From the NCBI GenBank assembly GCA_000181795.3, contig CM012954.1, forward strand, positions 12,059,051-12,123,050: a stretch of 64,000 nt of DNA, read 5' to 3'. Under the pieces are notes generated by a model. The model made no database searches, was not told the DNA's origin, and saw only the letters and a program-made list of their open reading frames with translations. The stretch is from Trichinella spiralis. Lineage: Eukaryota; Nematoda; Enoplea; Trichinellida; Trichinellidae. How positions within the stretch are numbered: the stretch's first letter is position 1; each line of letters starts with the position of its first letter. Position numbers and translations under genes: made by a program. Positions 16,317 through 25,800 of this stretch are shown here, piece after piece.

Positions 16317-17769
16317 ATAATAGTTATAATAATAAAACGATAAATGTAAATAAACCGTAACTTTATAAAATTTAAAAAGCACTTACAAAAATGGTTGTTT
16401 TTTTCCCGTTGTTATTACAATTTTATCATACAGAAATCCGCTTACATTATTACTGTGGTGCTTTAAGGTTGTTTTTACAACTTGTATTATTCGACATTCA
16501 TTCAATGAGAAAAATTTTTTCGCTAATGTGAGAAAACGAAGACTTGACCTTCTTGGTGGACAAGTCATTTGTTACCGCTGTTTTCTAACGAAGCAACAGG
16601 CGAATTCTTCAAATCTGTCAACGCTGCTTTATCAATATATATATATATTTTTTCAAAAAAATTTTCCACATATCACAAATCACAGCTACACAATCCAACA
16701 TCCGCTTTGTGAAGCGTGAAAAAAACAACCAATACCGTATTCGAATATTGAATACAGGTACTTCTTGTGTTCAAGGTCACGCTGTGGCAGATTGCGAATT
16801 CAAAAATTCACTGTAACAATCTGTGCTGACTGTAACTTTTTTTCCCCGTCAAATTCGACGCAATCTTGAAATTTAAACTTTACACGCACAATTTTTCACT
16901 TTTCTCATCAAAATCGACAAATTTTTTTCTTTTTATTTTTCATAAATAACATACCATTTGAAACTGAACTGCCTGTTGTTGTACTGTTACAGTAACAGAG
17001 TGACATGTCTTTCCATGTTTACTTTATTTCCAGGCAAAAAAAATTTGCATACACGTGCCATATCAAATGTAATTATTGATTACTCGCTGTGTTGGTTTTG
17101 CAACATTGTTTCAATAGCTACCTATTTATAAGCTTTGAGAAGAAGAAACAGTGCGAACTAATTAATTGCGTTATGCATATGCGAGCAAACTGCAAACGAA
17201 TATTGTACTCATTTCGTGATACTGATTAATTTGAACATAATTTAAAATTGAACAGAATTTTCTGCTTATGTAACACTTTTTTTATTGACAGAAATTCATA
17301 GCCTGTTTTACATGTTATTTTGATATTTTTAGTACACTTTCACTTAACAGCAAATTGAACCGTTTTTGAAATAATGTTTCACTTTCAAGTATCCATCTTT
17401 TGATTGATTGAGTCATTGTCTAGAATTTATTGGTCAGACAATTTTAGCTTAAACGTCAATCACGTTTGGCATCATACCTATCTATCGCATTTGTCATAAA
17501 TATTATTTATAAATTAAAATTATCATTTATATTGCATAATTATAATATTTAAATATCACAAAGAACAAGGAGTTTTGAAAAATACAAACCACATTACTGT
17601 AGTATTGTTATTGAAACGGTGTACGATACAATTTGTAAACCGTAACTGTATTTTTTTGTGATCATAAACTCAACCGGTACTAATAAATATGAAATGAATT
17701 AACGAGTGTATAAATTTTTTAAATATATATGATAAAATATTGATATGTACGATTTTTTAGGAATTTTTA

Positions 17770-19320
17770 ATGTTCTGTTGTCACAGCGTTCGAAAATCAG
17801 CGAGAATACGTTTGTTACTTCTTTGTGGAGATGCTCAAAGACGGTATGCTAGCAATAGTGTGAGAGTTCGTTTCGCGCCAAGTCCTACAGGGTTTTTGCA
17901 TTTCGGTGGTCTGAGAACTGCTTTATTCAACTATTTTTTTGCTAAACAGCGTGATGGAGTGTTCGTTTTGAGAATTGAGGATACAGATCGTCGTAGAATA
18001 GTGAATGGTTCTGTACAGAATTTGTTATCTGTTTTGCATTGCTTGAAAATCGCACCGGACGAAGGGCCAGCCAACGGAGGACCATATGGGCCATATGTCC
18101 AGTCGGAACGTATCCCACTCTACCAAGCGGCCGCTGAGCAGCTTATTGCCGAAAGAAAAGCCTATCGTTGCTTTTGTTCAGAACAGAGAATTTCCATTTT
18201 GAGAAAGGAGATGGCTCGTTTGCATCATCGGAAAAATTACGATAATTTCTGTAGAAAGCTGTCCGTGGAAGAGGCAAATCAGCGGATGCGAAATGGAGAA
18301 AAATTCGTCGTGCGATTTTTCCAGAAGTCGCGCAGCTATTCGTTGAATGATCTCGTCTATGGCCAGTACACCACTAATGTATCCGAGGAGGATGGTGATC
18401 CGGTGATCATCAAATCGGACCAATATCCGACTTATCATTTCGCCAACGTGGTCGACGATCATCTGATGCGCATAAGTCATGTACTGAGAGGAGAGGAGTG
18501 GCTCACCTCGTTAAGTAAGCATTTGCAAATTTATGAAGCGTTCAACTGGGAACCGCCACAGTTCGGTCATCTACCGGTTATGCTAGACATGGACGGTTCG
18601 AAATTGTCAAAACGTGACTTGTCGGTTCACGTGGATCATTTCTTAGCGTCCGGTTATCATCCAGATGCGTTAATTAATTTTGTTTGCTTTGCGGGTGGTG
18701 GATTCGGTGATTTGAAAAATGCAGACATGTTGTACAGTACGAAACAATTGATTCGCATGTTCAACTTGAATATGGTACAACGTCGTCGAACGAAATTAGA
18801 TGTACAATGGTTGAAACGGTTTAATCGAGAAGCCATTCGTCGACAAAGTGAAGATGCGTTGTTGGAACAACTTCTCAAGCTCATCGACCGTGAAATACCA
18901 GCTGAACACCGCATAGAATATGACGACAATTATTTCAGATCTGTCTTGAGACATTTTCGACCGCATATAGATTCCTTGTCTGATCTGTTGCTTAGCGAAA
19001 ACAGATATCTGTGGAGCTGGCCTAATCAAGTGCATTCAAAATTGACAATAGCCAACAATCAATGGTTACTGTTTCTCGACCAGGTTATAAATCAACTTGA
19101 TGCTTTGCCAGAGGATCACTTCATGGAAAATGCAGTAGCGTTGCATCTGTTGAACTGTGCAAAACACAGTCAGCTACAATCGAAAAAAGCGATGCAGTTT
19201 TTGCGCCATACTCTAACAGGTGCTGACAAAGGCTTGCCAATAGCTGAAATACTGGTTCTTTTTGGGAAAACTTATTCACTGCAACGGCTCCGGCGTATCA
19301 GAGAACAGTCAACAATTTAA
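17770..19320 (+). CDS. EARS2: Mitochondrial glutamyl-tRNA synthetase
   Basis: Single 516-codon exon (human EARS2 523 aa). Class I aminoacyl-tRNA synthetase that charges mitochondrial tRNA-Glu (and, in animals, mitochondrial tRNA-Gln before amidation). The first ~30 residues are Arg/Leu/Cys-rich with no acidic residue before position 21, as expected for a mitochondrial presequence. The Rossmann fold opens with VRFAPSPTGFLHFGGLRTAL; the HIGH-type signature reads HFGG at 44-47 where bacterial enzymes usually have HLGG. IEDTDR is at about 69-74 and the KMSKS-type loop GSKLSKRD at about 276-283. The helical anticodon-binding domain follows to the C-terminus. The ATG follows closely after an in-frame stop (TAG). 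Intronless, like CDC37 in this window. It converges on the tetraspanin gene with about 340 bp between stop codons. Confidence 0.96.
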   Translation: MFCCHSVRKSARIRLLLLCGDAQRRYASNSVRVRFAPSPTGFLHFGGLRTALFNYFFAKQRDGVFVLRIEDTDRRRIVNGSVQNLLSVLHCLKIAPDEGPANGGPYGPYVQSERIPLYQAAAEQLIAERKAYRCFCSEQRISILRKEMARLHHRKNYDNFCRKLSVEEANQRMRNGEKFVVRFFQKSRSYSLNDLVYGQYTTNVSEEDGDPVIIKSDQYPTYHFANVVDDHLMRISHVLRGEEWLTSLSKHLQIYEAFNWEPPQFGHLPVMLDMDGSKLSKRDLSVHVDHFLASGYHPDALINFVCFAGGGFGDLKNADMLYSTKQLIRMFNLNMVQRRRTKLDVQWLKRFNREAIRRQSEDALLEQLLKLIDREIPAEHRIEYDDNYFRSVLRHFRPHIDSLSDLLLSENRYLWSWPNQVHSKLTIANNQWLLFLDQVINQLDALPEDHFMENAVALHLLNCAKHSQLQSKKAMQFLRHTLTGADKGLPIAEILVLFGKTYSLQRLRRIREQSTI

Positions 19321-19660: not shown

Positions 19661-21376
19661 TCAATGAGAATAACGCCATCGGGCACGCTGTGCAAAAACA
19701 TCGCTACGCAAATTCTGCGCAAAACAAATACCAAGAATCTATAAAAATGAATCATTTTTTAAAACTGATCGTCGTTACAGTATTCTAAAATGCAATCGCT
19801 TAAAAATAACAGCTAGTCATGCATCTATAGCAAAATAAGCAACGTTGACAGGGCAGGATAAGTGAAGCGTGCGTCCGGCTTGCAAAAGCAACACACGACA
19901 TCCCTTACTTCAACTGCAACAACTGTCGACGCGATGCCTCCCATAAGTGCAAAATTTCTCTCTATCCAGTCTAGCCCACGATTTAAACAACCTTCACAGT
20001 AGATTTTCTTGCAAACCATCGGTGACTAGAAAACCAAAATTATAATATTGAATATAACTTTTACCTCCAAAGTAGCAACGCCGACAGCTACAGAACCAAC
20101 CACGGCCAAATTACGGCTAAACCATTCTTGCACTTGTATCAAGCAACCAGATTGAAAAATACTCTCTGAGAACTATAAAGCGAAAATAAAAATGGCAAAA
20201 TCAACCAAAGCAGCAACACATTCCGAACAATACATTTGTTAGTATTGAAGTAGTAAATAAAGAAGCGAAGAAAAGCAAGACAGAGCAAAAGGCAACACAA
20301 TAATGTTTACGTAAGTTAACATAATAAATGTGAAGAATCACAAAACAACTTACAAATTGATTACTGCATATAAAAACAACAATATGAAAAGTATCTGATG
20401 AAAAAAAAACATTCATTTATCCTATTTACAACTTTAGTAATAGCAAATTAAAAACAATTAATGAATAAAATAAACAGCCTGAACTTACAGGTGACATTTT
20501 TCGAGCACCGTGTCCACAATAATAATTCACCAGGCCATTCAAGCTAGCAGTTTTGCAACAAGAGAAGGGAACTCCTCCAGCTTCGGGACTTCCGAGAGCT
20601 TCGGACGAACTGTTAAAGTAAATATTCAAATCCCAATCATTCGGACCATGAATACCGCAGCATCGAAGCTGAAAAATCGAAAAAATATTTAATAATAAAC
20701 GAATGTCATTCTAATTTACCCAGTCCATTTGAATCCAATCAATCACGCTCTGCAAATCAGGATCATCACGGTAATAAATTATCATATCATCCAGCTGCGT
20801 CTCCAATTGCTCTTTGACCTAAAGAGATAAATTCATGTATAAAATGATCAGAAACCAATCATTGAGATTTATATCGATGAAATATCATTACCCAATCTTT
20901 AAAAACAAATCCAAGAATGCCAATTGCAAGTTCGATAAGAAGCAAATTTCCAACTAACACAGCATACTAAAGAATGAGAAAATTCATTAGAAACTGAAAT
21001 GCAAAATAACTGTTCTACAGTACTTACACATGCAAGTAGGCAAGTGTTCTCTCGTAAGGCGCCAATGCAACCCGTAAAACCAATTACAAAAGTGACACCG
21101 CCAACAATTATTAGTAACCAAGCCGGGTCTAAGTAAAACTTCGACAAACGAGTACCCAACTGACTGAAGGGATTTTTTTCTATTTGAGCCCATAAACCAA
21201 CGAGAAGAATTGTCAATCCAATTAGCTGATTTCATACATAAATGTTATTATATCAATAAAGCACAACAACAGTTTTCATGTACCCAGAAAACAACATTGA
21301 AACTGAAAACCATGTACTTCACAAAGCAGCTGATTTCGCTGGGATCCCGTCGACGAAAACCAGGAAGCTGATGCAT
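19661..21376 (-). CDS. TspanC8-type tetraspanin (TSPAN5/14/17/33 group; nematode TSP-14-like) with alternative exons
   Basis: Exons in transcription order: 21284-21376, 21028-21225, 20892-20966, 20720-20818, 20489-20668, then either 20065-20172 (B) or 19909-20025 (A), then 19661-19738. Every junction is phase 0. Product is 276 aa with B or 279 aa with A (human TSPAN5 268). Four membrane segments, GGV-x-F-x-x-GFTGCIGALREN in the TM2 region, FVFKDW ahead of the large loop, CCG and GVPFSCC in the loop, and a tail with ILGICFAQNLRSD match TSPAN5 closely. TspanC8 proteins escort the protease ADAM10 and so tune Notch cleavage at the cell surface. Start chosen at MHQLPGFRRRDPSEISC; a splice acceptor 14 nt upstream implies a 5' noncoding exon or a trans-spliced leader. 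Confidence 0.95.
19909..20025 (-). other. Tetraspanin alternative exon A (end of large extracellular loop plus TM4)
   Basis: 39 codons, phase 0 at both ends, flanked by TTTTCTAG and GTAAGG. It encodes the same structural segment as exon B but begins SPMVCKKIYCEGC, so it contributes three loop cysteines. Splicing in both A and B would duplicate TM4, so one replaces the other. Confidence 0.85.
20065..20172 (-). other. Tetraspanin alternative exon B (end of large extracellular loop plus TM4)
   Basis: 36 codons, phase 0 at both ends, flanked by a TTTATAG acceptor and a GTAAAAG donor. It encodes the terminal loop cysteine (SGC) followed by the fourth membrane segment. It aligns without gaps to exon A from that GC onward (GCLIQVQEWFSRNLAVVGS versus GCLNRGLDWIERNFALMGG). 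It contributes one cysteine to the loop. Confidence 0.85.
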
Positions 21377-22871
21377 TCTCTTCTTTACCACTGAATTACA
21401 GAATCAATTAAAGACAGTGTTCTAATAGTCTGTAACAAAGTAAAAGTCGTTTTTACATCAGTGCTTTCCTAAAAGATATCATAAATGAAACTAAGAAAAT
21501 TTTCAAAGCACTTTAATTTAAATGTACTTTAGTTAAGTTCTCTTAAATGTTAAAATAATCGCATAAAACTTAAACATTGCTTGATTTAGTTTAGAAACAT
21601 ACGTGAATCATAAATGCACGTTGAAATACTAAACAAATTTGAAATTTAAATGCAACATTACTTAAAGTAAGAGATAGACACTAACTTACCAAAGTAAAAA
21701 AAATAAATAAAATCTAAAATACAATAAGTAACAACATTGAGCTAAAAAAGCACAACAATAACACTGAATAATCTTGCAACAGCTTGTAGTTTACTGTAGC
21801 TATTTATAATAAGGTTGTATTTGCTTTTATCTTTGAATTGAAATTATAACAAATCTATTTCATGTCATAAATTTTATTTTTATGAGCATTTAATTTTATT
21901 TAATTGTTTTTTCATTGTTTTAAATGCTTTTATTTACTATTTATAATGAAGTTTAATTAAATTATCATTGCAAACAGTGCATGTTATTTAATTTGAGATG
22001 CTACCAATTTTCCTTAAAGTATGTTTTTCTTATTATACTAATTCAATACAGATATAGTACAATTATGATATAGTCATTATTGTTAAGAATATCGTAAAAA
22101 TGTGACCATGTTAAGAGCGTATTTTTTAAGTTGTTCAAAAAATGAAGGTTAACGTTTTTACGCTTTTTGACTTATATTTCATGCTTGAAAAGCTAAACAA
22201 GTAATATTTTAAATTAGCGTCATGTAAAATAAATATTGGTGCATTAGAATTACCATGAATATATAAAATTGCTTATTTTGTTTTATTTTTGATGAATTAA
22301 ATGACAGTTCTAAAAATACAATTATTAAAATGTTTCCTATTGCTTAAAATATTGAATTATAAGAAAAATGAAATTATTGAAATATTATCTATCGTTTAAA
22401 GACTTGAATTATTTTATGCACAATTGTATACTGTATTTTTGTATCGATTGTTTTTCAGTATTCGTCCTGTTTTGAATTATTTTTTCCCTGAGATCCGTTA
22501 GCAAAATTTTTATTTTAAAATTAAGAGCTTTTCTCAACCGTTGCTGTACTTATGATCATTTTGAATAAGCGTTGCTTAGATACTTTTTTTATTTTATAGT
22601 CACCTGAAATGTGTTATCTTTCGACATTAATTTTTCTGTGCTTTCAGTGGTTGAAAATTCAACTGAAAAGTCCCATAATCGAATGGATTAGTTTTTCGTT
22701 AATTAGTTGTTTTTATAGGCTTTTATATCGTTTTACAGAAGCAGCGGTTTCTGTTGCGTGGGCAATGTTGTAGGCGTTTTGACGTCACATTCGCTTCTGT
22801 CCTTGTGTACATCAACACGCATGGCCGGTGCTTCAGCGCAGCGTAAATCATTTTCTTTTGAAGACTGATCT
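21377..22871. other. Divergent intergenic region between tetraspanin and RUNDC1
   Basis: About 1.5 kb, extremely AT-rich (especially 21480-22560), holding the promoters of two divergently transcribed genes. A CAG acceptor at the left edge hints at a tetraspanin 5' noncoding exon further right. The less AT-rich block from about 22730 is probably RUNDC1 5' UTR; it has a TTTTACAG acceptor-like site just before. Confidence 0.5.
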
Positions 22872-25800
22872 ATGTCGAATGTTGGTGACGACTTAGACTG
22901 TTCTGAACATATTTCCATCGTTCAAGAAGAACCGATTCCTTCAGAACGCTTGGTTCCTCTCGGTGCCTCTTCTTCCGAAGTCTCATCTCCATGCACTGTA
23001 TTATCTGACATTGCGTAAGCTATTTTTAATATTTCTGAGTAATAATTATTTGTTTTTTTTTGTTTTGTTGTTGTACTTTCACGAATTCTGAGTTTGCTTT
23101 TAAGTATATAATGATAAGTGGAATTGTCATTTCATTGTCAACGTTACTATTATACCGTGCTGCATTTATTTCATACTGTTATCTTTATTTATTCAACTAT
23201 TGCTTTAGTTTAGTCCTTTCTGTTTATAAAGTGAACTGTATTTTTTTGTTATTTTTTCTTATGCATTTCAAGTTTGTAAATGTTAAATATTTTCTTCACA
23301 TTATTAATGCTGCGCTATGGTTGACAAATGTAATTCAGACTGTTATTCCTCATTTTAATTGTTACTGCACCGATATTATGAATATTACATTGTTTGCTTT
23401 CATTTTGAGTGTTGTTTAAATGATGAAATTCGTTTGTGTAATTAAAGTTAATGATGAATAATCGTTTAATTTACTTTTTTACACGTGTTAAACAGTTTAC
23501 TCAATATATTTATTTATAAGCATAAATTTTACATTGTATCGACCTTTTATTTGGTATGCGAGTTTAATATGGATGAAAATTATTATTCACGCCATTTATT
23601 TATATTTATATATGCATATTTCAGTGATGATCACTACGTGTCCGAACGATTTCGTCAACTTGAAGATGAACAAGAACAGCTTACATCCTCTCTTCTTGCA
23701 TTGTCTTGTCATTTTGCTCAAGTTCAGTTCCGATTGCAGCAAATTTGCAAAGCTCCCACTGAAGAGAAAGATGTATACAATTGAAGAATAATATTGAAAT
23801 AAATTTAAACAGATTATTTGTAACATTTCTATTCAGAGATTGTTGCGAGAACTTGAGGAATTTTCATTCCGAGAATGTCCGGACATTCTGGAAGCAAAGC
23901 GATTGCTTGATCCGAAGCGTGTGTCTGACGTAAGCTGGTCTTTACGGTTCATTGTGCAGTTTGTAATGATTTTTGCGTTTATGCAGAATTTGCATTCAAC
24001 TCATTCAGATAAGCTGAATATTGACCGGCAGCAGTTGAAAGAAGTGCAATTGATCGAACAATTGAAGCAGCAGCTGAATGATTTGGAAGCATTTGCATAC
24101 GAAGTTTGTTTTTATTAACTGATTAGCCAATTTTTATAATTTTAATAAGATGTAGTTTTTTAGAGAGGAGAAGGCGATTTACCATCTAGCAAAATAATTG
24201 AAAAACAGCGAGCTGTTATTGATCATTTGCAGCAATTGATGCCGCTCAATTTGAATCAATTTGAAAGATTGTCATCTGAAGAATTACAGTCAGAAGTCAA
24301 TCAAGCTTTGAAAAAAGTATGATTATAAGTTTCTATTTTTAATAAATGAGATTGTTCATACATTTTTTTTCAATTTACAGCTGGTAAATCCTATAAAAGT
24401 AAAAGAGCAATTGGTGCAGCAGTTGCAAACGCAGATTGTCGATTTGGAACGGTTTGTGGAATTTTTGCAAGGCAGCTCTGCTGCACAGCCGAACGATACG
24501 ATTAGAAATGCTTTGGCGAAAAAAAAGCCCAACCCTGTTGGCAAAGATTCTGGAATATTTGCCACACTGTTGTCCCAAATATCTACTGTTCTGCAAGTCT
24601 ACATTTTAAGTCAGTTGGGATGTCAGAGTCGTCGATTTAGGCGAAATGCGTTGAAAAATTCTTTCAAAGGCAGTCATTGGGGGTATAAATTTATTTTAAA
24701 ATTTTATTTTATGCTTGTATGAAAAATAATCGTATGAATTTATTGAGTAAATTTTTTCAGTGACCTCCGGGCTGCTTTGGAAATTAGCATTAATGAGATG
24801 GTGGAAATATGTGAACAGTATGATTTATCTTCAGATGCTGGTGCTAATCGCAGAAGTTTGACAATGTCTCAGAGTGAAGTAACTGTAAGAATTGAATTGA
24901 CAAATACCAAAAATATTTAACCACTGAAAATTGTTAAAGATGGAAGAGATTTGTCCGAGGGAAATTTTGAGAGCTGTTCGACGAAATCTTTGTCCAGCTT
25001 TAAGAGACTTGTTGCAGCACGGTTTAGTTGATGTAATATTGAATGAAATTATGATTATGTTTGTAATTGTCTTTTGGTTGTTATTGATTTATTCAAAAAA
25101 AATTCTTTTTAGTTTCCGGCTCATCAGGGTTCAGTGTTTGGATGCTTCTCAAAATATAATGAATACGAAACGAATGTATTGCATGTCTGGAATGTGGTGG
25201 AAAAATTCTATGAACTGAAGGTAGTAGATCAATTAGTATATTGCAAAACCATCATTTTTTTATGTTTTTCTAGCATGGCAAAGAGCTAGCCGATGCGCCT
25301 GTTAGAAAACTGTCTACTGCTTTTCAATTGGAAAATATTGGCGGGAAATCGATTACTTCTAGACAGGTTAAATTGTTGTTTTTACCTTACACTGTTTGAA
25401 TTTAAAATTATTTCAGCGTCTTCTTACGACGATTGATAATATATTGTCAACGCACGTAAAATTAAAAAGAAGCAGTGATGCCATGTTCAAAGCCTTCATC
25501 TCAGCTGCCCTCAAGTAGGTTGAACTTACTGTAGCTTTCAAAAAATTATAGATTCTGCAATGATAAAATTTCATTTAAAGTGAAATTTTGAATATGATTA
25601 TTTGAAAATTTAGTTATGGAAAGTTATCACCATGGTTGCGCATGATTTTTCACTGTAAAGAGATTCTTGACGATTGCTACACATCGTGGAGTTATTGTAC
25701 TGTCGTTGGTAAGTTACTGTACTTACTTAACAAGTTATAACTATATTATTGCATTTGTTTTCAATAAAATTTTAGGCATTGATGAAATATGCCAGTCACT

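Follow-up and report, generated by a model that had tools for sequence, protein, structure and literature searches.

Two homologous tetraspanin exons 39 nt apart in Trichinella spiralis, candidates for mutual exclusion by a gap below the usual intron size

Two consecutive exons of a tetraspanin gene of Trichinella spiralis, hereafter B and A, encode the same part of the protein and are separated by only 39 nt. The original prediction for this locus attributed the pair to a tandem exon duplication and proposed that the two exons are used exclusively, the gap being too short for them to be joined. The question is whether this gap is indeed too short to be spliced, and what other causes could keep the two exons apart.

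Gene anatomy and homology of the two exons

The gene lies on the minus strand of the window, i.e., the whole 64,000-nt stretch of DNA analysed here, and is composed as follows.

21284..21376, minus strand: constitutive coding exon 1, from MHQLPGF, identical to T. spiralis GenBank record P0003
21028..21225, minus strand: constitutive exon 2, TM1/TM2 (Pfam Tetraspanin)
20892..20966, minus strand: constitutive exon 3, TM3
20720..20818, minus strand: constitutive exon 4, start of the large loop
20489..20668, minus strand: constitutive exon 5, large loop with the CCG and SCC motifs and five cysteines
20173..20488, minus strand: intron 5 if B is chosen, 316 nt
20065..20172, minus strand: alternative exon B, 108 nt, 36 codons, end of the large loop and TM4, one loop cysteine
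20026..20064, minus strand: 39-nt inter-exon gap, GT...AG, from the donor of B to the acceptor of A
19909..20025, minus strand: alternative exon A, 117 nt, 39 codons, end of the large loop and TM4, three loop cysteines
19739..19908, minus strand: intron 6 if A is chosen, 170 nt
19661..19738, minus strand: constitutive last coding exon, ILGICFAQNLRSDVFAQRARWRYSH and stop

The predicted coordinates, frames and splice dinucleotides of B and A were recovered unchanged, as was the 39-nt GT...AG gap, and both exons are open, homologous and adjacent, each encoding the loop end and TM4. The splice sites of the gene are GT-AG throughout. The 315-residue translation of all exons, B and A included, is identical to the matching part of P0003; T. 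nelsoni P0005 departs from it at two positions and T. pseudospiralis P0004 at three. Each of the eight coding exons has a length divisible by 3 and every junction is in phase 0. Therefore, the phase shared by B and A, to which the prediction had drawn attention, is real but not special, and it is uninformative, since joint inclusion or joint skipping of the two exons would also stay in frame.

The deposited T. spiralis model P0003 (410 residues) reaches further 5' than the MHQLPGF start. Two minus-strand segments of the window, 22736-22891 and 22934-23011, encode parts of this N-terminal extension (MSDNTVHGDETSEEE... and SSPTFDIDQSS...TLPTQQKPLLL), and another piece of it, STCIYDSLVKKR, was not found as a single stretch. 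Exon 5 contains an imperfect tandem repeat of 18 nt (window 20567-20602). On the plus strand, positions 17761-19317 form a single 519-codon open frame, glutamyl-tRNA synthetase-like judging by its sequence, which lies tail to tail with the tetraspanin gene.

The gene has the features expected of a tetraspanin, namely the PF00335 domain, four membrane segments and the CCG motif. Against the Pfam profile (cut-off 32.1), isoforms with B or A alone both cover positions 1-221 of 225, with 175.3 and 172.7 bits, respectively, and the form in which both exons are skipped covers positions 1-169 with 145.0 bits. For the B+A fusion, the match is split into two stretches and reaches 180.0 bits; therefore, the Pfam score is no argument against fusion. 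A hydropathy scan, in which overlapping windows were merged by eye, gave four membrane segments with A or B, five with B+A and three with both skipped. The numbered tetraspanin names in the best 120 of 552 hits are all 5, 17 or 26A, and the best relative of solved structure is Tetraspanin-15 (E 2.8e-34); by homology, this gene is the T. spiralis relative of TSPAN5/Tsp26A, in the TspanC8 group. Modelled with AlphaFold, isoforms A (Trichuris suis P0012; pLDDT 63, pTM 0.47) and B (T. pseudospiralis P0010; pLDDT 60, pTM 0.42) come out poor in the loop; therefore, disulphides cannot be placed on them, and a helical TM4 is the sole reading that we take from these models.

The alignment of B and A is gap-free from the GC motif onward, over the 28 residues that remain in each exon, as had been claimed. 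In the 30-residue segment beginning four residues before GC, 11/30 residues are identical, a level reached by 0 of 100,000 shuffles of A, and BLASTP aligns the two exons with 7/19 identities (E 9e-5, for a single comparison). The exons are adjacent, homologous, similar in length and in the same phase, with intact splice sites, as is typical of tandem exon pairs. The predicted tandem duplication is backed by this homology, by segments of matching length in a protein of Trichuris, and by the doubling of the same segment in arthropods, whose transcript-like sequences use a single copy (see below). At the sequence level, tandem duplication and alternative use of B and A appear well supported. Inspection by eye of the translations of introns 5 and 6 yielded no third copy of the exon.

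The 39-nt gap and the choice between B and A

The gap had been described as shorter than the shortest ordinary introns of the window, quoted as 53-58 nt. It is indeed shorter, but the quoted minimum has to be lowered, as intron 4 of this same gene measures 51 nt (introns 1-4 being 58, 61, 73 and 51 nt). The alternative joins would require introns of 316 nt (exon 5 to B), 463 nt (exon 5 to A), 326 nt (B to the last exon) and 170 nt (A to the last exon), and joining B to A would require one of 39 nt.

Donor-acceptor pairs were counted by spacing over the whole 53-Mb genome (14 contigs), using the reversed pattern as a relative control. For GTAAGT..TTTCAG, the observed/control counts are 171/120 at 20-29 nt, a range in which, to our knowledge, no nematode introns are to be expected, followed by 191/139 at 30-39 nt, 152/113 at 40-49 nt, 245/125 at 50-59 nt and 206/108 at 60-69 nt. 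Between 20-29 and 30-49 nt the ratio is unchanged, and it climbs at 50 nt (Fisher, 50-69 vs 20-49 nt, p 0.0014), with weaker results for single bins against 20-29 nt (50-59 nt, p 0.05; 60-69 nt, p 0.09). The corresponding estimated excess is -7 ± 32 at 30-39 nt, -9 ± 27 at 40-49 nt, +67 ± 31 at 50-59 nt and +52 ± 28 at 60-69 nt. For the second motif, GTAAGT..TTTTAG, the counts are 121/501 at 35-44 nt (ten lengths), 72/240 at 45-49 nt (five lengths) and 220/467 at 50-59 nt (ten lengths). The reversed-pattern control is not composition-neutral, and since it lies above the TTTTAG count in every bin, the change between bins alone is informative for this motif: the 50-59 nt bin differs from the 35-44 nt bin (Fisher, p 2.2e-7), and the 45-49 nt bin shows no difference from 35-44 nt (p 0.20) and differs from 50-59 nt (p 0.004).

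Genome-wide, motif spacing thus reveals no detectable intron-length signal below 50 nt and a signal at 50-69 nt; this spectrum concerns strong GTAAGT donors, B having GTAAAA, and bounds rather than excludes rare very short introns. Part of the matches at short spacings are repeat copies. The claim that 39 nt lies under the usual intron size holds, by this measure, for the genome and beyond the introns of the window, and B and A belong to the steric class by distance only (a 39-nt gap vs a signal from 50 nt). The gap sequence itself (20026-20064) has a single genomic occurrence, with up to three mismatches allowed. Introns were also called de novo, on the basis of open frames and codon usage, in genome samples, 6 of 20 of which (L017, L018, L019, L027, L028 and L030) were left out because N-filled and GC-rich sequence dominated the model; there was no clear excess over decoy splice sites, and one version showed some clustering at 45-75 nt, on which we do not rely. 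Four of the 10-kb samples (L018, L027, L028 and L030) have 46-55% GC, vs 29-38% in the other non-masked ones, and look transposon-like by eye; L018 and L027 contain N-masked bases.

From the distance and the anatomy of the pair, we consider it fairly probable that B and A are true mutually exclusive exons and that the short gap acts as the physical block. Joining B to A would mean removing a 39-nt intron, about 11 nt below the shortest detectable intron class of the genome. Simultaneous occupation of the donor of B and of the branch point or acceptor of A would be impossible; this would physically prevent joint inclusion, whose product would have a fifth membrane segment with the frame intact. 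In each mRNA, the last loop segment and TM4 would be supplied by B or by A, either one giving a full four-pass tetraspanin, and the choice would be left to exon competition (site strength, tissue factors).

Frame-shift decay cannot police this choice, as neither B+A nor double skipping disturbs the frame; a physical block would be the simplest enforcer, and it is as such that we infer steric hindrance. NMD was discarded as an enforcer for the same reason, and an incompatibility between U2 and U12 sites was discarded because all sites are GT-AG and ordinary U2-looking by eye. If the gap is retained after B, it is read in frame (its length being a multiple of 3) as VKVIFNIIILVF, 12 codons, and terminated at the TAG contained in the acceptor, which would yield a short protein of four passes without the usual tail; consequently, retention could not yield a B+A fusion either. 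Above a rough score, the gap contains a single branch-point candidate, at 25 nt from B's donor. Since the ordinary 51-nt intron 4 also contains one, by the same rough score, at 24 nt from its own donor, the distance between donor and branch point alone does not discriminate between the gap and this intron.

Exclusive use could also depend on trans-acting splicing regulators or on RNA structure, with the short gap as an incidental feature or a helper. We regard this as unlikely, because a gap below the intron-length signal of the genome would block joining without any regulator. Nevertheless, Drosophila Tsp26A is among the genes whose splicing is changed in brains without the neuronal eMIC programme (PMC8797185, which in its accessible part leaves the exon unstated), and a 21-nt inverted repeat of 76% connects 19906-19926, at the donor of A, with 20232-20252, in intron 5 upstream of B, although it may be due to chance. 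Only weak, A/T-rich or 76% repeats were found as potential RNA-pairing arms at the locus.

Conservation in Trichinellida and doubling in arthropods

The homology search was examined for its best 120 of 552 hits, each representing a 90% cluster. There are nine Trichinella records among the matches listed: B and A are joined in seven (P0003-P0009) and B stands alone in two (T. pseudospiralis P0010 and Trichinella T6 P0011), with no A-alone record among these nine. The partial model of Trichuris suis (P0012) has A alone, 27/39 identical to exon A of the window. The same exon pair, for which a search in related nematodes had been proposed, is present in Trichuris trichiura P0013, where both segments align gap-free over the Trichinella lengths of 36 and 39 residues, the Trichuris exon limits being inferred from the protein. 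P0013 is identical to the window at 27/39 positions in A, 18/36 in B, 47/60 in exon 5 and 21/25 in the last exon. Outside Trichinellida, the nematodes listed (best 120 of 552) are single-copy, without any second segment. Searches with the region of exon A or B only returned Trichinella alone (7/8 and 9/14 candidates); this restriction stems from the search's word filter, as Trichuris also went undetected.

The common ancestor of Trichinella and Trichuris has been dated to ~281 mya, with a 95% interval of 384-204 (PMC4740406, accessible part). As T. trichiura carries both segments at the same lengths as Trichinella, the pair is probably about 281 My old. Only one of the two exons might be in use, the other being a decaying duplicate, and B is indeed less conserved than A between the two genera. 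This reading is highly improbable: both exons are open, their sites are intact and the segment lengths have been kept over this time, and across the listed Trichinella records B is invariant and A has one or two changes (in T. pseudospiralis P0004, 36/36 and 38/39 identical residues).

Could B and A instead be normally joined, with the 39 nt working as an ultrashort intron and the protein having one more loop segment and crossing the membrane a fifth time? The joined form in the seven Trichinella records and one Trichuris record (best 120 of 552), together with the two copies in 17 listed arthropod records, RefSeq X isoforms included, would favour it. We consider it very unlikely, however, because there is no detectable intron-length signal below 50 nt, the product is five-pass, B-only and A-only models exist too, and both copies occur in none of the 31 transcript-like proteins of the family, which include no Trichinellida. 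The Trichinella protein sets were obtained by de novo and homology-based prediction, according to the accessible part of PMC4740406, and we judge the joined B+A records of Trichinella and T. trichiura to be probable prediction artefacts.

Two loop/TM4 copies are found in 25 of the best 120 hits (of 552), i.e., eight Trichinellida and 17 arthropods, the latter comprising a tick, a spider, Artemia, Daphnia, an ostracod, a mayfly, a cockroach, a termite, three moths, a butterfly, an ant, three wasps and a bee. In arthropods, the doubled segment stands just before ILGICFAQ or a close variant, in a place equivalent to that of the Trichinella pair; that the copies are separate exons is deduced from the protein limits. 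In one bee species, an isoform with copy 1 only (P0113) exists alongside one with two copies (P0118), and P0058 and P0069, on short contigs with the same flank, carry copy 1 singly and copy 2 singly.

Of these 120 records, 31 come solely from jgi/lgn sources and have a frame without interruption on contigs of ~1-4 kb; we presume them to be transcripts and treated them as transcript-like. Both copies are present in 0/31 of them vs 25/89 of the others (p 2.4e-4; best 120 of 552), and, restricting the comparison to arthropod-like records (n=98, without the nematode-like rows and Lineus), in 0/26 vs 17/72 (p 0.005). Five of the 31 are nematode-like and none belongs to Trichinellida; therefore, this result concerns the family and not T. 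spiralis. Since some of the two-copy arthropod records are RefSeq isoforms, rare joint inclusion may occur in arthropods.

The phylogeny of the exon peptides was reconstructed from 30 sequences and 33 columns, a number that the program itself flags as few. In the best tree, all nine nematode rows, including A and B, are placed opposite the arthropod copies and Lineus (87/95, not starred), and the A segments of both genera, Trichinella and Trichuris, branch together at 100/100. Arthropod copies 1 and 2 are poorly separated, with Bombyx copy 1 among the copy 2 rows, and pairwise identity gave no assignment of A or B to either arthropod copy. When clades were held, the p-AU values were 0.124 for A with B, 0.248 for A with arthropod copy 2, 0.134 for A with copy 1, 0.198 for B with the nematode-like P0014, 0.383 for arthropod copy 2 alone and 0.036 for B with copy 1, which is the sole held clade rejected.

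From these sequences, we favour separate duplications in arthropods and in Trichinellida. A single duplication in the ecdysozoan ancestor, giving both the arthropod and the Trichinellida pairs, is conceivable but doubtful: the same segment is concerned, before the last exon and in tandem layout, in chelicerates, crustaceans and insects, and the grouping of A with either arthropod copy was not rejected; in contrast, the best tree, from its 33 columns, sets the nematode rows apart from arthropods and Lineus, and the listed nematodes outside Trichinellida are single-copy. The single-copy P0014 shares 60% identity with B over a 30-residue segment, so that B is probably of the ancestral type, in a tree without an exclusive B/P0014 group.

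Loop cysteines and relation to known systems

The two alternatives differ in their loop cysteines: to the five of exon 5, B adds one and A three, giving totals of six and eight. The two extra cysteines of A are in new positions and are both retained in Trichuris. In the best 120 of 552 hits, a large loop with eight cysteines, including an FNC motif before the switch, is found in 98, and six loop cysteines without FNC in 20, of which 15 are nematodes by name and five are unnamed and nematode-like by sequence. These 20 six-cysteine records, all without the FNC...AC pair, are P0003-P0011, P0013-P0015, P0024, P0025, P0041, P0046, P0048, P0066, P0077 and P0080; the tally ran to the first GC motif, hence joined B+A records were counted as the B form. 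T. suis P0012 reaches eight cysteines without FNC because exon A supplies two of them, and P0016 is an odd record with a repeated segment. The FNC...AC pair is missing from exon 5 of the window and present in arthropods and Lineus, among the matches listed. Given the six vs eight loop cysteines and the different TM4, switching between A and B would probably alter the choice of partner or cargo.

Steric interference between tandem exons is a known mechanism. In human OGDH, exclusivity is enforced by branch points that lie at 25-41 nt from the donor, below a proposed threshold of ~50 nt (PMC7969005), and potential steric interference was proposed for 57/629 human clusters (PMC5740500). As far as the accessible parts of these two sources go, the Trichinella pair resembles OGDH exons 4a/4b, alpha-tropomyosin and actinin, i.e., tandem homologous exons with a donor-branch point distance below the steric threshold. 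However, the OGDH branch points are near the donor and far from the acceptor, whereas in Trichinella the whole gap is 39 nt, with ordinary introns from ~50 nt. Steric hindrance was also invoked for the choice of alternative exon 17 of Dscam, together with RNA structure, as known from the title of a reference; at the Trichinella locus, in contrast, no convincing RNA structure was found.

The closest non-nematode relatives among the matches listed, the arthropod TSPAN5/Tsp26A/TSPAN17-like proteins, have the same segment doubled before ILGICFAQ. Unlike Trichinella, they keep the FNC...AC pair in the preceding segment and have one loop cysteine (GC) per copy. The best tree favours a separate arthropod duplication, the arthropod side being known from proteins alone. 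Among nematodes, the TspanC8 gene of C. elegans likewise has two protein isoforms, TSP-14A and TSP-14B, but these differ only N-terminally, through alternative 5' exons, and share the four TM and the eight loop cysteines (PMC8827444, accessible part).

No account of the B/A pair or of mutually exclusive exons in TSPAN5/Tsp26A was found in the full-text literature searched, a scope outside which most subscription papers lie. In their accessible parts, tetraspanin or TSPAN is unmentioned in PMC5740500, tetraspanin or Tsp in PMC3228551, Tsp or CG9093 in PMC3303723, and TSPAN in PMC9741552, and the survey of tetraspanin introns in PMC2650405 contains neither 'mutually' nor '26A'. Therefore, the class of mechanism is known and the Trichinella case appears unreported in the literature searched.

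More broadly, we give even weight to the idea, and to its opposite, that the loop/TM4 exon of TSPAN5/Tsp26A is a recurrent, ancient and unrecognised isoform switch, which would have arisen through one or more early arthropod duplications and a further one preceding the divergence of Trichinella and Trichuris. Within Trichinellida, the cysteine pair absent from the preceding exon, as in all listed nematode members, would be offset by two new cysteines in one of the alternatives. Splicing would thereby toggle the loop between six and eight cysteines, along with TM4, in a probable regulator of ADAM10, Notch and BMP, exclusivity being set by a gap shorter than the minimum intron of the genome.

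Several public protein records of Trichinella, Trichuris trichiura and arthropods fuse the apparent alternative exons into a five-pass protein, and real isoforms would thus be hidden in them. If confirmed, the locus would be a natural case in which the minimum-intron rule, acting as an isoform switch, could be cleanly tested. It would also demonstrate repeated duplication of one exon in a tetraspanin that, by homology, belongs to the ADAM10-regulating group, so that what TM4 and the last loop segment do could be tested in Drosophila.

Elsewhere in the genome, two tetraspanin matches (L002 and L003, at G000:C1:12495915-12496544 and 12505400-12506029) are separated by 9.5 kb and score the same against Pfam (80.2 bits each); they are probably a recent duplication.
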